From Geobacter sp. (GTDB taxonomy: Bacteria; Desulfobacterota; Desulfuromonadia; Geobacterales; Pseudopelobacteraceae), in contig PLYK01000020.1 of assembly GCA_003151775.1 (NCBI GenBank), positions 1 through 45,495 of the forward strand: a stretch of 45,495 nucleotides of DNA. The letters run 5' to 3'. Positions 27,789 to 45,018 of the stretch are shown piece after piece (the stretch's first letter is position 1; every line of letters begins with the position of its first letter). The notes beneath the pieces were generated by a model that had not been told where the DNA came from, ran no database searches, and worked only from the letters and a program-made list of their open reading frames with translations. Position numbers and translations under genes: made by a program.

Positions 27789-27953
27789 CTAGTGTCCCGT
27801 GCGGTTAGTCGTGGGAAGTAATTCCGAGCAATTTTGGCTGGTGCCAAGGCGCGGCGACGCAGGTGTAGCAGGGTCTACATCAAGGAGCCGCAACGCCGGC
27901 AGCAGACAAAAGAGCCGGAATTACGAGTACGAACTAACCGCACGGGACACTAG
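27789..27953. mobile_element. 165-bp MITE-like inverted-repeat element
   Basis: Termini ctagtgtcccgtgcggttagt / actaaccgcacgggacactag (21-bp perfect TIR), imperfect complementarity throughout, central hairpin tgtag-cagggt-ctaca. Confidence 0.85.
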
Positions 27954-29151
27954 GGCCGTGGAAGGCGATGGCCCCGTTGTAGTCGGCCAGCAGGAACTGA
28001 GTTCTCAGGTTCTTCTCATGCCGTTTTGCCGCTTTTGCGGCATGGTTGCAGACCAGCTCCAGCAGTCCGGGGTCGAAGTTGGAGGCGATGACGATCTCCC
28101 TGGCGGTGTTGGCCGGGGCTATGGCCGCGGTGACGGCCTCGGGAAGCCCTGCCTCCACGGCCCACCCCAGGAGGCGGGACAGGTCCAGCTCCGAGGCGGC
28201 GGCATGGGTGTTCTCGTGACCGCAGGCGATCTTGAGCAGCTTGGCGAACTGGCAGGCGACGAGCGGCTGAACAAAGCCCCTCTGGGCGCAGGAGCGCAAG
28301 GCATGGGCCACGTGGTCCCCCATCATGACAAAGGCCTCGTCCGGGAGCAACACCCGCTCCCCGGTAACGGGATGGGCGGCTGCATGGTTGAGAAGGCGCT
28401 GGGCCGCCAGCTCGCTGGTGCGGCCGGTGGAAAGGACCACGTTCCCGCAGCCGCAGGCGCGGGCCACGTCCAGGGCGGTGTCGATGGTGTCGGTCCAGGC
28501 TTGGGCCGACAGGGGGCTGACGATGCCGGTGGTGCCGAGGATCGAAAGGCCCCCCTGGATGCCGAGGCGGGCGTTGAGGGTTCTCTGCGCCCGCAGCTCG
28601 CCGTCCGGGATGCTTATGGTGACTAGGAGCGTGAATGGTGAATCGTTGATCGTGAATGGTGAATGGTGAATCGTGAATGGTGAATCTAGAGGCGTTAATC
28701 GTGAATGGTGAATGGTGAATGGTGAGTCTTGAATCGCTTCGCGGACCGCCTGCTCGATCATCCGGCGCGGCACCGGGTTGATGGCCCACTCGCCCGGCGC
28801 TACGGCCAGGCCCGGTTTGGTGGCCTTGCCGATGCCGGCGCCCCCTTCGATGTTGATGGTGCTTCCCCCTGTGGAGGAGCAGGGGAGGGGCGGGATGAGT
28901 GCCACCCTGGCATGCAGTTCGGCCCCGTTGGTCACGTCCGGGTCGTCGCCCGCATCCTTTACCACGAAGCATGCGGCTTCGTCGGCGGTGAAGCTCTGTC
29001 CGTGCAGCGGAAACGTGGCGGAGATCCCGGCGGGCAGCTCGATAACGACCTCGGAGACCTCTGCCTGGCGGGCGAGCATCAGGGCCGCGCCCTTGGCCGC
29101 CGCTGCGGCGCAGGCACCGGTGGTATAGCCGTGTCGCAGGGTCTTTTTCAT
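27934..29151 (-). CDS. cbiD: Cobalt-precorrin-5B (C1)-methyltransferase
   Basis: LRHGYTTGACAAAAAKGAALML; GTTGIVSPLS; C-terminus runs into the MITE-like element. Confidence 0.93.
   Translation of the reverse strand: MKKTLRHGYTTGACAAAAAKGAALMLARQAEVSEVVIELPAGISATFPLHGQSFTADEAACFVVKDAGDDPDVTNGAELHARVALIPPLPCSSTGGSTINIEGGAGIGKATKPGLAVAPGEWAINPVPRRMIEQAVREAIQDSPFTIHHSRLTPLDSPFTIHHSPFTINDSPFTLLVTISIPDGELRAQRTLNARLGIQGGLSILGTTGIVSPLSAQAWTDTIDTALDVARACGCGNVVLSTGRTSELAAQRLLNHAAAHPVTGERVLLPDEAFVMMGDHVAHALRSCAQRGFVQPLVACQFAKLLKIACGHENTHAAASELDLSRLLGWAVEAGLPEAVTAAIAPANTAREIVIASNFDPGLLELVCNHAAKAAKRHEKNLRTQFLLADYNGAIAFHGPSVPCG
28630..28731. repeat. Heptanucleotide tandem repeat (gtgaatg/gtgaatc) inside cbiD
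   Basis: Degenerate 7-nt units read directly; encodes SPFTIHH-like heptapeptides in frame. Confidence 0.9.
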
Positions 29152-30900: not shown

Positions 30901-31176
30901 TCAAGTCTTACGGTCCCGGTCATAGGGGCTGATGACGTTTGTACACTCTTTGCAGCGATAAAAATATCGATCTTTTCTCAGGACCGTGTACAGGCCGAAG
31001 GCAAACAGCAGCATCCAGTCCATTACGCCGACAACCCAGCCGAAGTACCAGCCGGTTGCCAATCCGACCAAAAAACCGGCTATGATCCAGCGCACGCCAT
31101 ATCTTCTCCGGTCGGAGAGGGGGATTGTTTCACCGCAAAAACCGCATGCAGTGAATGGGGGGAAGTCCGTCGTCAC
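30901..31176 (-). CDS. Small zinc-ribbon-like membrane protein (GTG start overlapping nuoG stop)
   Basis: CGFCGET...two hydrophobic segments...YRCKECTN. Confidence 0.6.
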   Translation of the reverse strand: MTTDFPPFTACGFCGETIPLSDRRRYGVRWIIAGFLVGLATGWYFGWVVGVMDWMLLFAFGLYTVLRKDRYFYRCKECTNVISPYDRDRKT

Positions 31177-33245
31177 GCCTGTTCTCTCTGGTTGATTATG
31201 ACGCCGGCTCCTGTGGCATCCAGATCCTTCAATGCTTTCCACGGTCCGCTCAGCGGCTCATCCACCACGGCCTCGCCCAGGCGCTGCATCAGCAGGGCAA
31301 TAAGCCGTGCGGACGGGGCCACGTCGCCGCCGGGGGCGTCTATTCCGTGCACCCGCGGCGGGTGCAACTCGGGGGTGAGCCCCTTGATCGGCAGGCCGGG
31401 GTTCATCACCTTTTTGAAACGCTGGGCACGTCCCTCGTTATTGATATAGATGCCCTCCTGCTCCACCCAGGCGGTGGTGGGCAGCACCACCCCGGCCCGC
31501 GCCACCAGCCCGGTGGGCCGCCAGTCAGCGGCTGCGAGCACGGCGATCCCTTGCGGGAGTTCGTGGTGGAGGTCGGCCTCAAAGGAGATGATCCCCTTAA
31601 TCCGGCCATCGGCAAGGGCCGCTGACAGCGCCACGCCATGATGCTGCCGGGCCAGTTCGGCGCAGCCGAAGGCGTTTGGGCCGTCCAGGATGAAGGCCAG
31701 TTTCGGTTCCGGTTGAAGTCCCCCTTTGTCAAAGGGGGATTGAGGGGGATTTGCCGTTTCGATGGATGATGAAATCCCCCCCGACCCCCCTTTTGTAAAG
31801 GGGAGAGCAAAGGCAGATTGAATATTTTTTAACGCCTCTAACCCCTGGCGGCTGGTGCCGCAGATGATGACCGGGCGCTTGGTCTCTGCCAGCGGCACGT
31901 CGGCCAGGGAGGCGATATACTCGAATTTGAACGGAAGGGGCCCCCTCACCCGGCCTTCGGCCACCCTCTCCCCAGGGGAGAGGGGAGGCTGTGTGCCTTC
32001 TCCCTCCGGGAGAAGGGCAGGATGAGGGGCTATGGCGTACACCCGCGCCCCGCTCCGCCACGCCTGGCGCACGGCCAGGGCCATCATGGGGGCCTCGTCC
32101 AAGAGGTCGCACCCCACAAGGACCACCAGGTCGGCGCTGCGCACATCCTCCTGGGAGGCGCTGTTCTCCGTTGTCAAGAGCGAGACCGCCTTACCTGTCA
32201 GTTCGGCACGGTCCGTGTCGTTGAACAGGCAGAGCGTGCCGGCGCCGAGCATCTCCCGCAAGCGGGCGGCCATGATGTTCCCCGCAAGGTCCATGCGGGT
32301 AGAACCCACAATGGCCAGGCTGTCCGGACCGTGCAGTTCCAGGAATTCGCCCAGGAGCGTCGCCAGGGCGTCCAGGGCCTCGTCCAGGCTGACCGGCTTC
32401 CCGTCCACCAGGGCTTGGCGCGGCCGTTCCGGGGTATTGACGCCGGCGTTTGAGAAGCGTCCTTTGTCGCAGATGAACCAGCCGTTGACATGATCGTTCC
32501 TGCGGGCCGTTGTCTTGAGCAGTTCGCGGTAGCGCGCCATGGGAACGGTGTTGCACCCCAGGGAGCAGTGGGGGCAGACCGAGGGGGCCATGTCGTAGTC
32601 CCAGTAGCGGGCGCGGAAGCGGGCGGTCTTGTCGGTGAAGACCCCGGTGGGGCAGATGTCCACCAGGTTACCGGAAAAGGGGGATTGAAGCGGCCCGTCG
32701 TCCTGGCGGCCGAAGTAGACGATGGCGGCCCGCCCCATGGCGCCGAAGTCGGCGCCGCCGGCGTACTCCTGGTAGAAGCGGGAGCAGCGGTAGCACTGGA
32801 TGCAGCGGTTCATCTCGTGTTCGATGAACTCGCCCAGGTACTGGTTGTTGTAGGTGCGTTTTTTGCCGTCATAGCGCCGGATGCCGTGGCCCCCCGCAAT
32901 GGTGAAGTCCTGTAACTGGCACTCGCCCCCCTCGTCGCAGACCGGACAGTCGTGGGGGTGGTTGATCATCAGCCACTCGATGACGCTCTTGCGCATGGCC
33001 ATCGCCTCGTCGTCGGTGGTGGAGACCACCATGCCGTCCTGGGCCGGCAACATGCAGGACATCTGCACCCCCTTGACCGGACCGTCCAGCATCTTCACGG
33101 CGCAGACCCGGCAGGCGCCGGCCTTGCCCAGGGCAGGGTGCCAGCAGAAATGGGGGATGGGGATATCCACCGACTGGGCCGCTTCGAGCACAGTGGTCCC
33201 CTCGGGGACTTCAACCGGTATGTTGTCGATGATTAGTTTGATCAT
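31173..33245 (-). CDS. nuoG: NADH-quinone oxidoreductase subunit G-like (2Fe-2S/4Fe-4S, molybdopterin-fold)
   Basis: HFCWHPALGKAGACRVCAVKM; HDCPVCDEGGECQLQD; RCIQCYRCSRF; CPHCSLGCNTVP. Confidence 0.93.
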   Translation of the reverse strand: MIKLIIDNIPVEVPEGTTVLEAAQSVDIPIPHFCWHPALGKAGACRVCAVKMLDGPVKGVQMSCMLPAQDGMVVSTTDDEAMAMRKSVIEWLMINHPHDCPVCDEGGECQLQDFTIAGGHGIRRYDGKKRTYNNQYLGEFIEHEMNRCIQCYRCSRFYQEYAGGADFGAMGRAAIVYFGRQDDGPLQSPFSGNLVDICPTGVFTDKTARFRARYWDYDMAPSVCPHCSLGCNTVPMARYRELLKTTARRNDHVNGWFICDKGRFSNAGVNTPERPRQALVDGKPVSLDEALDALATLLGEFLELHGPDSLAIVGSTRMDLAGNIMAARLREMLGAGTLCLFNDTDRAELTGKAVSLLTTENSASQEDVRSADLVVLVGCDLLDEAPMMALAVRQAWRSGARVYAIAPHPALLPEGEGTQPPLSPGERVAEGRVRGPLPFKFEYIASLADVPLAETKRPVIICGTSRQGLEALKNIQSAFALPFTKGGSGGISSSIETANPPQSPFDKGGLQPEPKLAFILDGPNAFGCAELARQHHGVALSAALADGRIKGIISFEADLHHELPQGIAVLAAADWRPTGLVARAGVVLPTTAWVEQEGIYINNEGRAQRFKKVMNPGLPIKGLTPELHPPRVHGIDAPGGDVAPSARLIALLMQRLGEAVVDEPLSGPWKALKDLDATGAGVIINQREQA
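31718..31806. repeat. Palindromic repeat element inserted in frame in nuoG (element A)
   Basis: tccccctttgtcaaagggggattgagggggattt ... gaaatcccccccgaccccccttttgtaaagggga; encodes LPFTKGGSGGISSSIETANPPQSPFDKGGLQ. Confidence 0.88.
31936..32030. repeat. Second palindromic repeat element inserted in frame in nuoG (element B)
   Basis: gccccctcacccggccttcggccaccctctccccaggggagagggg ... ccttctccctccgggagaagggcaggatgaggggc; encodes PHPALLPEGEGTQPPLSPGERVAEGRVRGPLP. Confidence 0.88.
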
Positions 33246-33254
33246 TTTCGATGT

Positions 33255-34520
33255 TCAATTCCCCAAAGGGCATTTCCCCCCGGTGATATGCTCCCTCACC
33301 TCGTCCTCGAACAACCTCAGCATCCCCTCCACTGGTCCCATGGCGCCGGGGGCAAGGGCGCAGAAGGCGTAGTTCAGCATGTGGACATGTTCCCGCAGGA
33401 TGTCGATATCGGACGCTTCGCCATGGCCGGCTTCGATTCTCTCCAGGATGTGCTGCACAAAGGGGAGCCCTTCCCGGCAGGGGGTGCACCAGCCGCAGGA
33501 TTCCCGGGCAAAGAAGCGGACCAGGTTGAGGGTTGCTGCCACCATGCAGGTGGTCTGGTCGAAGACCACAACCCCGCCGGTGCCCAGGCGCGAGCCGGCC
33601 TTGGCCACCGGGTCGAAGTCCATGGCCACTGCCCAGTGTTCCTTGGTGAAATAGGGAGTGGACGCCCCGCCGGGGATGCAGGCCTTGAAGCTGCTGCCGG
33701 GCCGCATGCCGCCGCAGTGGGTGTCGATGATCTCGCCCAGTGGGATGCCGATGGGAAGTTCCAGGCAGATGGGGTTGCGCACGTGGCCGCTGACGCAGAA
33801 GAGCTTGGTGCCGGAACCTTCCGGCGTGGCGGCCAGGGCCTTGAACCAGGCCGGACCGTGGGCGACGATGGCCGGTATATTGGCCAGGGTCTCCACGTTG
33901 TTTACTACCGTGGGCTGGCCCCACAGCCCCTTTACGGCCGGAAAGGGGGGTTTGACCCGGGGATTGGCCCTGATCCCCTCCAGGGCGTTCATCAGGGCGG
34001 TCTCCTCGCCGCAGATGTAGCGGCCGGCCGACAGGTGCACGTCCAGTTCCAGGCTGAAGCCGCTGCCGCAGATGTCGCTGCCCAGGAAGCCGGCCTTGTG
34101 GGCAAAGTCTATGGCGCTGCGCAGGTTAAGGGCAGCCTGCTCGTAGCCGCGGCGGATGAAGATGAAGGCGCGCTCCACCCCCAGGGCAAAGCTGGTCAGG
34201 GCCATCCCCTCCACCAGCAGGTGCGGGTTGTGCTCCAGCAGCACCCGGTCCTTGTATGTGCCAGGCTCCATCTCGTCGCTGTTGCAGATCAGGTAGCGCG
34301 GCCCCGGCAGGTCGCGGGGGACGAACGACCACTTCCTGCCGGTGGGAAATCCTGCCCCGCCCCGTCCCCGCAGGCCGGAGTCGATCACTGCCTGCTGCAC
34401 GTCGTTGGGCGACATCCCGGCCAGCGCCTTCCGGAGGGTCTGGAAACCGCCGTCGGCCAGGTATTCGTCAAAGGTCACGGCCCGGTCGGGAGGGTTATTT
34501 TTGAAGAGGATAGTGTCCAC
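33255..34520 (-). CDS. nuoF: NADH-quinone oxidoreductase subunit F-like (flavoprotein)
   Basis: GLRGRGGAGFPTGRKW; CNSDEMEPGTYKDR; ESCGWCTPCREG. Confidence 0.95.
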   Translation of the reverse strand: MDTILFKNNPPDRAVTFDEYLADGGFQTLRKALAGMSPNDVQQAVIDSGLRGRGGAGFPTGRKWSFVPRDLPGPRYLICNSDEMEPGTYKDRVLLEHNPHLLVEGMALTSFALGVERAFIFIRRGYEQAALNLRSAIDFAHKAGFLGSDICGSGFSLELDVHLSAGRYICGEETALMNALEGIRANPRVKPPFPAVKGLWGQPTVVNNVETLANIPAIVAHGPAWFKALAATPEGSGTKLFCVSGHVRNPICLELPIGIPLGEIIDTHCGGMRPGSSFKACIPGGASTPYFTKEHWAVAMDFDPVAKAGSRLGTGGVVVFDQTTCMVAATLNLVRFFARESCGWCTPCREGLPFVQHILERIEAGHGEASDIDILREHVHMLNYAFCALAPGAMGPVEGMLRLFEDEVREHITGGKCPLGN

Positions 34521-34521
34521 G

Positions 34522-34995
34522 TTACCGGGACTCCCGGTGGCCGGCGATGATGGCTGCGGCCTGTTCCGGGGAGACCGGGCCGAAGAGACGGTCGCCGATC
34601 ATCAGGGCCGGGCCGTTGCCGCAGTTGCCCAGGCAGCAGCAGGGGAGCAGGGTAACGGCGTTGTCGGCGGTAGTTGCGCCGGCCGCGATCCCCAGGCGCT
34701 GCTCCAGGTGGCGCAGGAGTGTTTCGCCCCCCATGGCCCAGCAGGAGATGGAGTCGCACACGTGCACCACCACCCGTCCCACCGGCCGGCGGTAGATCAT
34801 CTCGTAGAAGGTGGCCAACTCCTCCACCTGCAGGGGGGAGAGCCCTAAGAGGAGGGCGGCGTCTGCCACGGCCTCGTCGGTAAGCCAGCCATAGTGGCGC
34901 TGCAACCCCTTCATAACGTCCACCGCGGCTTCGCGGGGGGTAATGGCCTTGGCTACGCGCTGTTCCAGTTCCTGTCTAAGTTGTGTCGGGATCAT
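34522..34995 (-). CDS. nuoE: NADH-quinone oxidoreductase subunit E-like (2Fe-2S thioredoxin fold)
   Basis: GLSPLQVEELATFYEMIYRRPVGRVVVHVCDSISCWAMGG; LLPCCCLGNCGNGPALMIGD. Confidence 0.94.
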   Translation of the reverse strand: MIPTQLRQELEQRVAKAITPREAAVDVMKGLQRHYGWLTDEAVADAALLLGLSPLQVEELATFYEMIYRRPVGRVVVHVCDSISCWAMGGETLLRHLEQRLGIAAGATTADNAVTLLPCCCLGNCGNGPALMIGDRLFGPVSPEQAAAIIAGHRESR

Positions 34996-42884: not shown

Positions 42885-42930
42885 AGAATTCCCCCCTTTG
42901 ACAAAGGGGGGCCAGGGGGGATTTGCCTTG
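42885..42930. repeat. Solo arm of the cccccctttgacaaagggggg repeat family
   Basis: ttcccccctttgacaaaggggggccaggggggatttgcc; matches arms of 31718-31806. Confidence 0.85.
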
Positions 42931-44214: not shown

Positions 44215-45018
44215 ATGGCAAAGGAATTATACGTAGGGCACCTGTCGGAAGAGGTGACGGAAGAGGAACTGCGCAAGCTGTTCTCGGTGATGGGGACCGT
44301 GACCTCCGTGCACCTGATTATCGACCCCGAGACCAGGGAGTTCAAGCGCTGTGCGTATGTGCGCATGGCGGCGGACGTAGACCCCAGGGATGTGGTCGAG
44401 ACCTTGGACGGCGCATATTTGGTGGACCGGGTCATCACGGTCAGCATCGCCCGCCCGCAGAGTGAACTCAAACCGGGTAGACCGGGCGGCGCCGGAAGGC
44501 CGGGACCCGGTGCGCGGCCAAAAACCGGGGCCGGAGCAAGGTTCGGCGCGAGACCCAAACCGGGCGCGGGAGCAAAACCGGGTGCTGGAACAAGGACTGG
44601 CGAAAGAGCGCGGCCTAGTGCGGGAACAAGGCCTGACGCAGAAGCGAGGTCTGGTGCTGGAACAAGGTCTGGAGCTGAAGCGAGGACCGGTGCTGGAATA
44701 AGGTCTGGAGCAGAAACGAGGTCCGGCGCAGGAGCAAGTCCGGGTACGGAAGCGAGGTCTGGTTCGGGAACGAGAACCGGTTCGCGAGCAAGGTCTATTG
44801 CGGAATCAAGAATTGGCGCCGTATCGAGGTCCGGAGCCGAAGCACGGTCTGGTACTGGACCAAGGGCCGGCGCGGGAAAGCGGTCTGATGCCGGCGCAAG
44901 GCCCGGCGCGGGGGCAAGGCCCAGCGCAGGAGCAAGGCCGAAAAGTGGCGACCGTAGCGGCAGCAGCAGGCCTCCCCGCCCAGGCGGCGAAAGGAAAGGT
45001 CCGCGCAAGGGGCGCTAG
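44215..45018 (+). CDS. RRM RNA-binding protein with long R/G/A/S-rich repeat tail
   Basis: KELYVGHLSEEVTEEELRKLFSVMGTV...FKRCAYVRMA; tail of 6-aa repeats. Confidence 0.9.
   Translation: MAKELYVGHLSEEVTEEELRKLFSVMGTVTSVHLIIDPETREFKRCAYVRMAADVDPRDVVETLDGAYLVDRVITVSIARPQSELKPGRPGGAGRPGPGARPKTGAGARFGARPKPGAGAKPGAGTRTGERARPSAGTRPDAEARSGAGTRSGAEARTGAGIRSGAETRSGAGASPGTEARSGSGTRTGSRARSIAESRIGAVSRSGAEARSGTGPRAGAGKRSDAGARPGAGARPSAGARPKSGDRSGSSRPPRPGGERKGPRKGR

Follow-up and report, generated by a model that had tools for sequence, protein, structure and literature searches.

The gene for a NuoG-type Fe-S protein in a Geobacter-like bacterium holds two unlike palindromic repeats within its coding frame, which raises the question of how such DNA entered a conserved protein and why it has stayed there. 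The window, i.e., the whole stretch of DNA analysed in this study (45,495 nucleotides), belongs to a 2.95-Mb draft genome of 145 contigs that is 84% complete (G000). A preliminary description had placed two different palindromic elements in frame in nuoG, and this was borne out: the open reading frame at 31173-33245 on the reverse strand is uninterrupted, and the peptides quoted for the two elements were recovered exactly. The features concerned are the following.

31173-33245, reverse strand: nuoG, encoding an NADH dehydrogenase 75-kDa-type subunit of 690 aa; intact frame, host of elements A and B.
33255-34520, reverse strand: nuoF, the upstream neighbour of nuoG (Pfam Complex1_51K and others), used as negative control.
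34522-34995, reverse strand: nuoE, which opens the small nuoE-F-G cluster (Pfam 2Fe-2S_thioredx).
31716-31806, reverse strand: element A, a MITE-like imperfect palindrome of 91 bp in linker 2, at about residues 482-512 (LPFTKGGSGGISSSIETANPPQSPFDKGGLQ).
31942-32029, reverse strand: element B, located in linker 1, its palindromic core measuring 88 bp and containing internal hairpins, at about residues 407-435 (PHPALLPEGEGTQPPLSPGERVAEGRVRG).
42892-42927, forward strand: an intergenic half copy of A in the same window, 83% identical to A (E 4e-4).

The host gene encodes a recognisable NuoG, with Fe-S binding domains and a molybdopterin-like domain both present in the Pfam results (Fer2_4, NADH-G_4Fe-4S_3, Fer4_Nqo3, Molybdop_Fe4S4 and Molybdopterin), and the invariant cysteines of its Fe-S domains are kept across homologs. 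Bacterial NuoG chains of known structure (NADH-quinone oxidoreductase subunit G) are matched at E 2e-153 and carry a long insertion of their own near the first insertion site, and nuoG homologs were found in every relative searched. The gene sits in a small nuoE-F-G cluster and not in a 14-gene complex I operon; therefore, the word respiratory in the earlier label of a respiratory Fe-S protein needs care. With the inserts left out, nuoG gave a dN/dS of about 0.22-0.25 between the window's species and its congeners, and the 150 codons downstream of site 2 gave 0.15-0.25. Since purifying selection persists beyond the inserts, the gene probably functions with them in place and, given the intact frame and the conserved Fe-S ligands, a full-length product is very probably made.

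Elements A and B have the inverted-arm architecture and the genomic distribution that had been attributed to them. The arms of A span 32 nt each and are 81% complementary (31721-31752 and 31772-31803), while B combines outer arms of 14 nt (86% complementary) with a perfect 10-bp internal hairpin (31964-31984). Folded as single strands of the gene sense, A reached -48.7 kcal/mol (z = -4.4, with none of 200 dinucleotide shuffles as good) and B reached -60.5 kcal/mol (z = -2.5, with 2 of 200 as good). BLAST against the genome itself located the A family at about 23 distinct places and the B family at about 16-17. A and B are unrelated dispersed families, mostly intergenic. The position of A was corrected at its start (31716 instead of 31718) and that of B narrowed to its palindromic core (31942-32029 instead of 31936-32030), and the intergenic relative that had been noticed at 42885-42930 corresponds to the half-A copy listed above, which is counted among the A places of the genome. 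Inverted repeats, short length, lack of autonomy and high copy number are shared with MITEs; no target-site duplication was obvious by eye in the aligned flanks of A and B copies, and neither element had a match in Rfam. Copies of both are free of stops in several frames, the fractions for A being rough because its frame count took both orientations of one palindrome, and the +2 frame, in which NuoG reads B, is free of stops in just 8 of 38 B copies.

Alignment with homologs showed that both elements are insertions and that they fall in two variable linkers. Site 1, which holds B, is flanked by '..GARVY' and '..LADVPL', and site 2, which holds A, is flanked by '..VIICG..' and '..LAFILDGPNAFG'. 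Rows with and without inserts were sorted by eye from the sequence ahead of any length measurement. Homologs without the repeats do not carry equally long unrelated sequence at these positions: their linkers measure 23-32 aa (median 29) at site 1 and 14-23 aa (median 19) at site 2, compared with 49 and 53 aa in the window, and repeat-bearing linkers range over 39-71 and 31-60 aa, respectively. One weak case (L005), with linkers of 32 and 36 aa, holds a weak remnant only. The figure of about 30 residues for each element is correct for the stretch that the element encodes and not for the net gain, which is 20 residues at the B site and 34 at the A site. Because B encodes about 30 residues for a gain of about 20, it must have displaced approximately 10 native residues, as judged from the alignment, and so is no clean addition.

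In an AlphaFold model of NuoG built with 36 sequences (mean pLDDT 77), residues 413-433 within B and 486-509 within A scored below 50 and were flanked by confident segments, although the low scores at the inserts are partly expected, since the homologs in the model alignment lack them, and some Fe-S regions scored similarly low. Both linkers, which are poorly conserved and belong to the molybdopterin-oxidoreductase-like domain, are probably disordered, flexible loops.

Six genomes of the genus were compared, from the window's own (G000) to G005, with G001 as the nearest relative. At site 1, B is present in frame with matching edges in G000, G002, G004 and G005 and as a remnant in G003, while G001 has an A-family element in its place. 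At site 2, A is present in G000, is reduced to a remnant in G001 and is absent from the orthologs of G002-G005. Counting both orientations of a palindrome, A gave 27 match rows in G000, 38 in G001 and 0-3 in each of G002-G005, and B gave 37 in G005 and 41 in G004; these counts fit the NuoG pattern, and within the genus A occurs in NuoG only where it is abundant (G000 and G001). A may have jumped within the gene of G001, from site 2 to site 1: the left flanks of A at site 1 of G001 and at site 2 of G000 are similar (CAATCnGCC..GCT), hinting at local transfer instead of two independent arrivals, but the site-1 element of G001 finds its closest matches among the other copies in that genome.

Beyond the genus, a NuoEFG-type NuoG was present in 97 of the 141 genomes surveyed across the order, and linkers were read at 66 loci, where the anchors allowed. 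A third family, C (CCTTCGACTCCGCTCAGGG..CTGAGCGGAGTCGAAG), occupies site 1 in frame in G023 and G094, and a degenerate copy of it is likely present at site 1 in G096; a fourth family, D, lies in frame at site 2 in G125, and half-A elements lie in frame at site 2 in G021 and G115. These elements are generally repeats in their hosts as well: G023 and G094 each hold multiple copies of C, D is multicopy in G125 with dozens of matches also in G000 and G115, and A is multicopy in G021 and G024, while G115 has just one further A match. In total, four unrelated repeat families account for about eight events in two short segments of NuoG, all of them in the window's own bacterial family, and among the loci read recognisable repeats were not seen in the linkers of other bacterial families. 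The nuoG of G016 was rejected as a case of frameshifting by C and was not counted, as the contig (L012, G016:C111) becomes unrelated sequence directly past the site-1 C element, likelier a misjoin and probably a misassembly at the repeat.

The neighbouring NuoF showed no insertion across about 30 members of the family, NuoEFG-type matches being single unbroken alignments. Additionally, surrounding frames were checked for a set of A and B copies from G000, G001, G004 and G005, candidate ORFs having at least 20 codons on both sides of the element and being mostly scanned with Pfam. This search for further in-frame copies yielded one clear second host among the A and B copies checked, cbiA (cobyrinate diamide synthase), in which conserved sequence flanks the element on both sides; it yielded no other.

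L045 (G000:C60:41859-41893), with L299 in G001 and L212 in G004: half-A in frame in cbiA, in the linker between the AAA and glutamine-amidotransferase domains.

The half-A of the G004 cbiA is similar to those of G000 and G001, and the gene was recognised on the amidotransferase side only. In G000, a half-B (L067, G000:C105:17244-17293) makes up the C terminus of NuoJ. Many ORFs over intergenic copies had no two-sided Pfam match and were not counted as genes. Separately, a half-B was observed just upstream of nuoK in G004 (L306), so that a second nuo locus is touched by B. Two other repeat-containing frames were noted in the window itself: CbiD (27934-29151, reverse strand) contains an in-frame tandem array of the TTCACCATTCACCATTCACGAT type that encodes DSPFTIHHS.. 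and about 28 extra aa, the array being shorter and diverged in G002 and absent in G001, G003, G004 and G005, and a 267-aa ORF (44215-45018, forward strand) begins like an RNA-binding protein and continues into a long tail of low complexity made of GARxGAG-type repeats.

The rate at which insert B changes was compared with that of B copies elsewhere. Between G000 and G005, 9 of 87 sites differ in the NuoG insert, versus a dS of 0.45 for the gene, a contrast that taken by itself would point to constraint, and the nonsynonymous divergence of insert B from the window copy (0.10-0.14) resembles the value for the remaining NuoG sequence (0.11-0.12). Between G005 and G004, the NuoG copy of B is 97.7% identical, inside the range of 12 other orthologous copies (mostly 94-99%, with one outlier at 81%). 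Outside nuoG, too, orthologous B copies (L263-L294 in G005 and L303-L334 in G004) were seen to diverge far less than nuoG synonymous sites between these two genomes. Constraint on the inserted peptide was accordingly rejected as proof of function, other orthologous copies being equally conserved: insert B evolves no slower than B copies elsewhere, with no sign of peptide selection, and because B copies are slow everywhere, its slow change in NuoG gives no pointer to the peptide.

Taken together, these results are probably best explained by selfish palindromes that insert widely and are tolerated by the disordered linkers of NuoG as long as the frame is kept. Elements A and B would be copies of two selfish, non-autonomous, MITE- or REP-like families spreading in this Geobacter-like family, presumably moved by a mobilising enzyme, and such copies would normally persist only in intergenic DNA. 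An element arriving in either linker of NuoG would be nearly neutral and tolerated provided that the frame remains open, and frame retention need not be rare, since GC-rich palindromes coding for Pro and Gly are often stop-free. Copies in the linkers would consequently pile up and last as translated loops, while copies elsewhere in needed proteins would be purged. The arrival of B at site 1 would predate the diversification of the genus, that of A in linker 2 would date to the common ancestor of the window's species and G001, and other families would have reached these linkers independently in other genera.

Alternative readings start from the same observations. The inserts may have been co-opted as loops that tune NuoEFG docking to a partner or its stability, with selection on the peptide preserving them, a reading that draws on the retention of B in frame across the genus, on its NuoG-like nonsynonymous divergence and on the repeated acquisition of inserts by the same two loops; it is nevertheless quite unlikely, as orthologous B copies elsewhere are just as conserved, lineages have wholly different peptides (A, B, C, D) at one and the same site, neither B nor most of the site-2 A is present in G001, and most relatives have no insert at all. 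Rather improbable, to the same degree, is that the elements act as nucleic-acid signals in nuoG, either as DNA-binding sites or as mRNA hairpins by which the transcript is slowed or stabilised, with translation incidental: the coding-strand hairpins are strong and B copies are slow at synonymous and other sites, in NuoG and elsewhere, but the full palindrome is lost in the remnants of G001 (site 2) and G003 (site 1), changes in the nuoG copies of G002, G004 and G005 weaken pairing, and Rfam gives no family match.

That the mobilising enzymes preferentially target the DNA of the linkers, which would then be more than permissive, is unlikely although slightly easier to entertain. The clustering of about eight events, involving four families, in two short segments, with none in NuoF, speaks for such a preference; against it, unrelated families are unlikely to share a target sequence, the edges of the elements differ in position inside each linker, and survivorship bias would be expected to produce the same pattern. 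Tolerance and target preference are indistinguishable here, as the elements could favour the sequence or the structure of the linkers. A combined reading, in which the linkers are a true acceptor site and captured palindromes are kept as loops tuning NuoEFG docking to a partner, is very unlikely; if true, parasitic DNA would be raw material to rewire a redox enzyme. An assembly artefact at the repeats was suggested by the 145-contig draft and by the G016 contig, which changes right behind its C element as repeat misjoins do, yet it is extremely improbable: the window copies are distinct variants whose nearest near-full copies in the same genome are 81-84% identical, nuoG is in frame on both flanks of each element, and B is in place in the single-contig G004 and a remnant in the single-contig G003. 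Tolerance of selfish palindromes in the NuoG linkers is retained as the preferred explanation.

Several known systems bear comparison with these elements. The Rickettsia palindromic elements (RPEs) are palindromes of about 100-150 bp in several families that occur in frame in unrelated housekeeping proteins, with nearly half of the reviewed R. conorii RPEs located in ORFs (PMC10969869). The likeness to RPEs put forward in the preliminary description concerns the outcome (a housekeeping protein with an in-frame palindrome) and does not extend to membership: among the A and B copies checked, only nuoG and cbiA are clear hosts and only the C-terminal end of NuoJ joins them, so that a large share of copies in genes was not found and nearly all of those checked lie outside conserved genes. 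The host group is also different, and here several unrelated families use the same two loops of one gene. GTAG/CGTC REPs are likewise mostly intergenic with some in-frame intragenic copies in several species, including single genes that were hit twice (uvrA of O. terrae and uvrB of R. conorii) and different REPs at roughly the same site in recB of two Xanthomonas species (PMC3733652). In contrast, the target here is NuoG and not a DNA-repair gene, and more families and events share one site than that study gives for recB; no GTAG or CGTC tetranucleotide was seen at the ends of aligned A and B copies, and the REP stem-loop measures 20-40 bp versus 88-91 bp. A and B work like RPEs and intragenic REPs, while membership in the RPE or GTAG/CGTC class is not supported.

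Mobilisation of A and B by RAYTs was considered in the same connection. Y1_Tnp genes occur in all six genomes of the genus, and nine Y1_Tnp regions had no A, B or C copy nearby, one D fragment, and different terminal repeats; the proposal was rejected because these genes carry unrelated terminal repeats of their own. RAYT-like genes (L343, L346, L347 and others) were observed to be bounded by short inverted repeats, e.g., AATAAGGGGACAGGC and its complement, that are unlike A-D and give a TIRtron-like arrangement.

Closer to the present host, the genome papers on G. bemidjiensis and G. metallireducens, from the same bacterial order as the window's species, describe genes that contain multicopy sequences, one paper stating explicitly that no frameshift results (PMC2996986, PMC2700814), and in G. 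metallireducens a heptanucleotide element present in 49 copies is found both in genes and between them (PMC2700814). Their main texts differ from the present findings in having neither nuoG nor cross-genus recurrence at one site (PMC2996986, PMC2700814). The non-autonomous inverted-repeat MITE Chunjie of Geobacter is also mostly intergenic (PMC10969869), but it measures 178-235 bp and has direct repeats in addition to its terminal inverted repeats, whereas A and B measure 88-91 bp and are nearly all palindrome. No paper describing NuoG as a host of such repeats was found in the open-access literature. The type of event is thus already known, and what distinguishes this case is the recurrent use of two NuoG loops by multiple families, which makes them an unusually hot target. 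Such segments can mislead homology models, alignments and short-read assemblies of their host genes. Known in-frame palindromic repeats are usually scattered single cases, whereas nuoG offers a natural series over dozens of genomes in which the same two loops are empty, filled by four repeat families or left with decaying remnants, so that the distinction between tolerated and useful translated selfish DNA, and the speed of its decay, can be put to the test.
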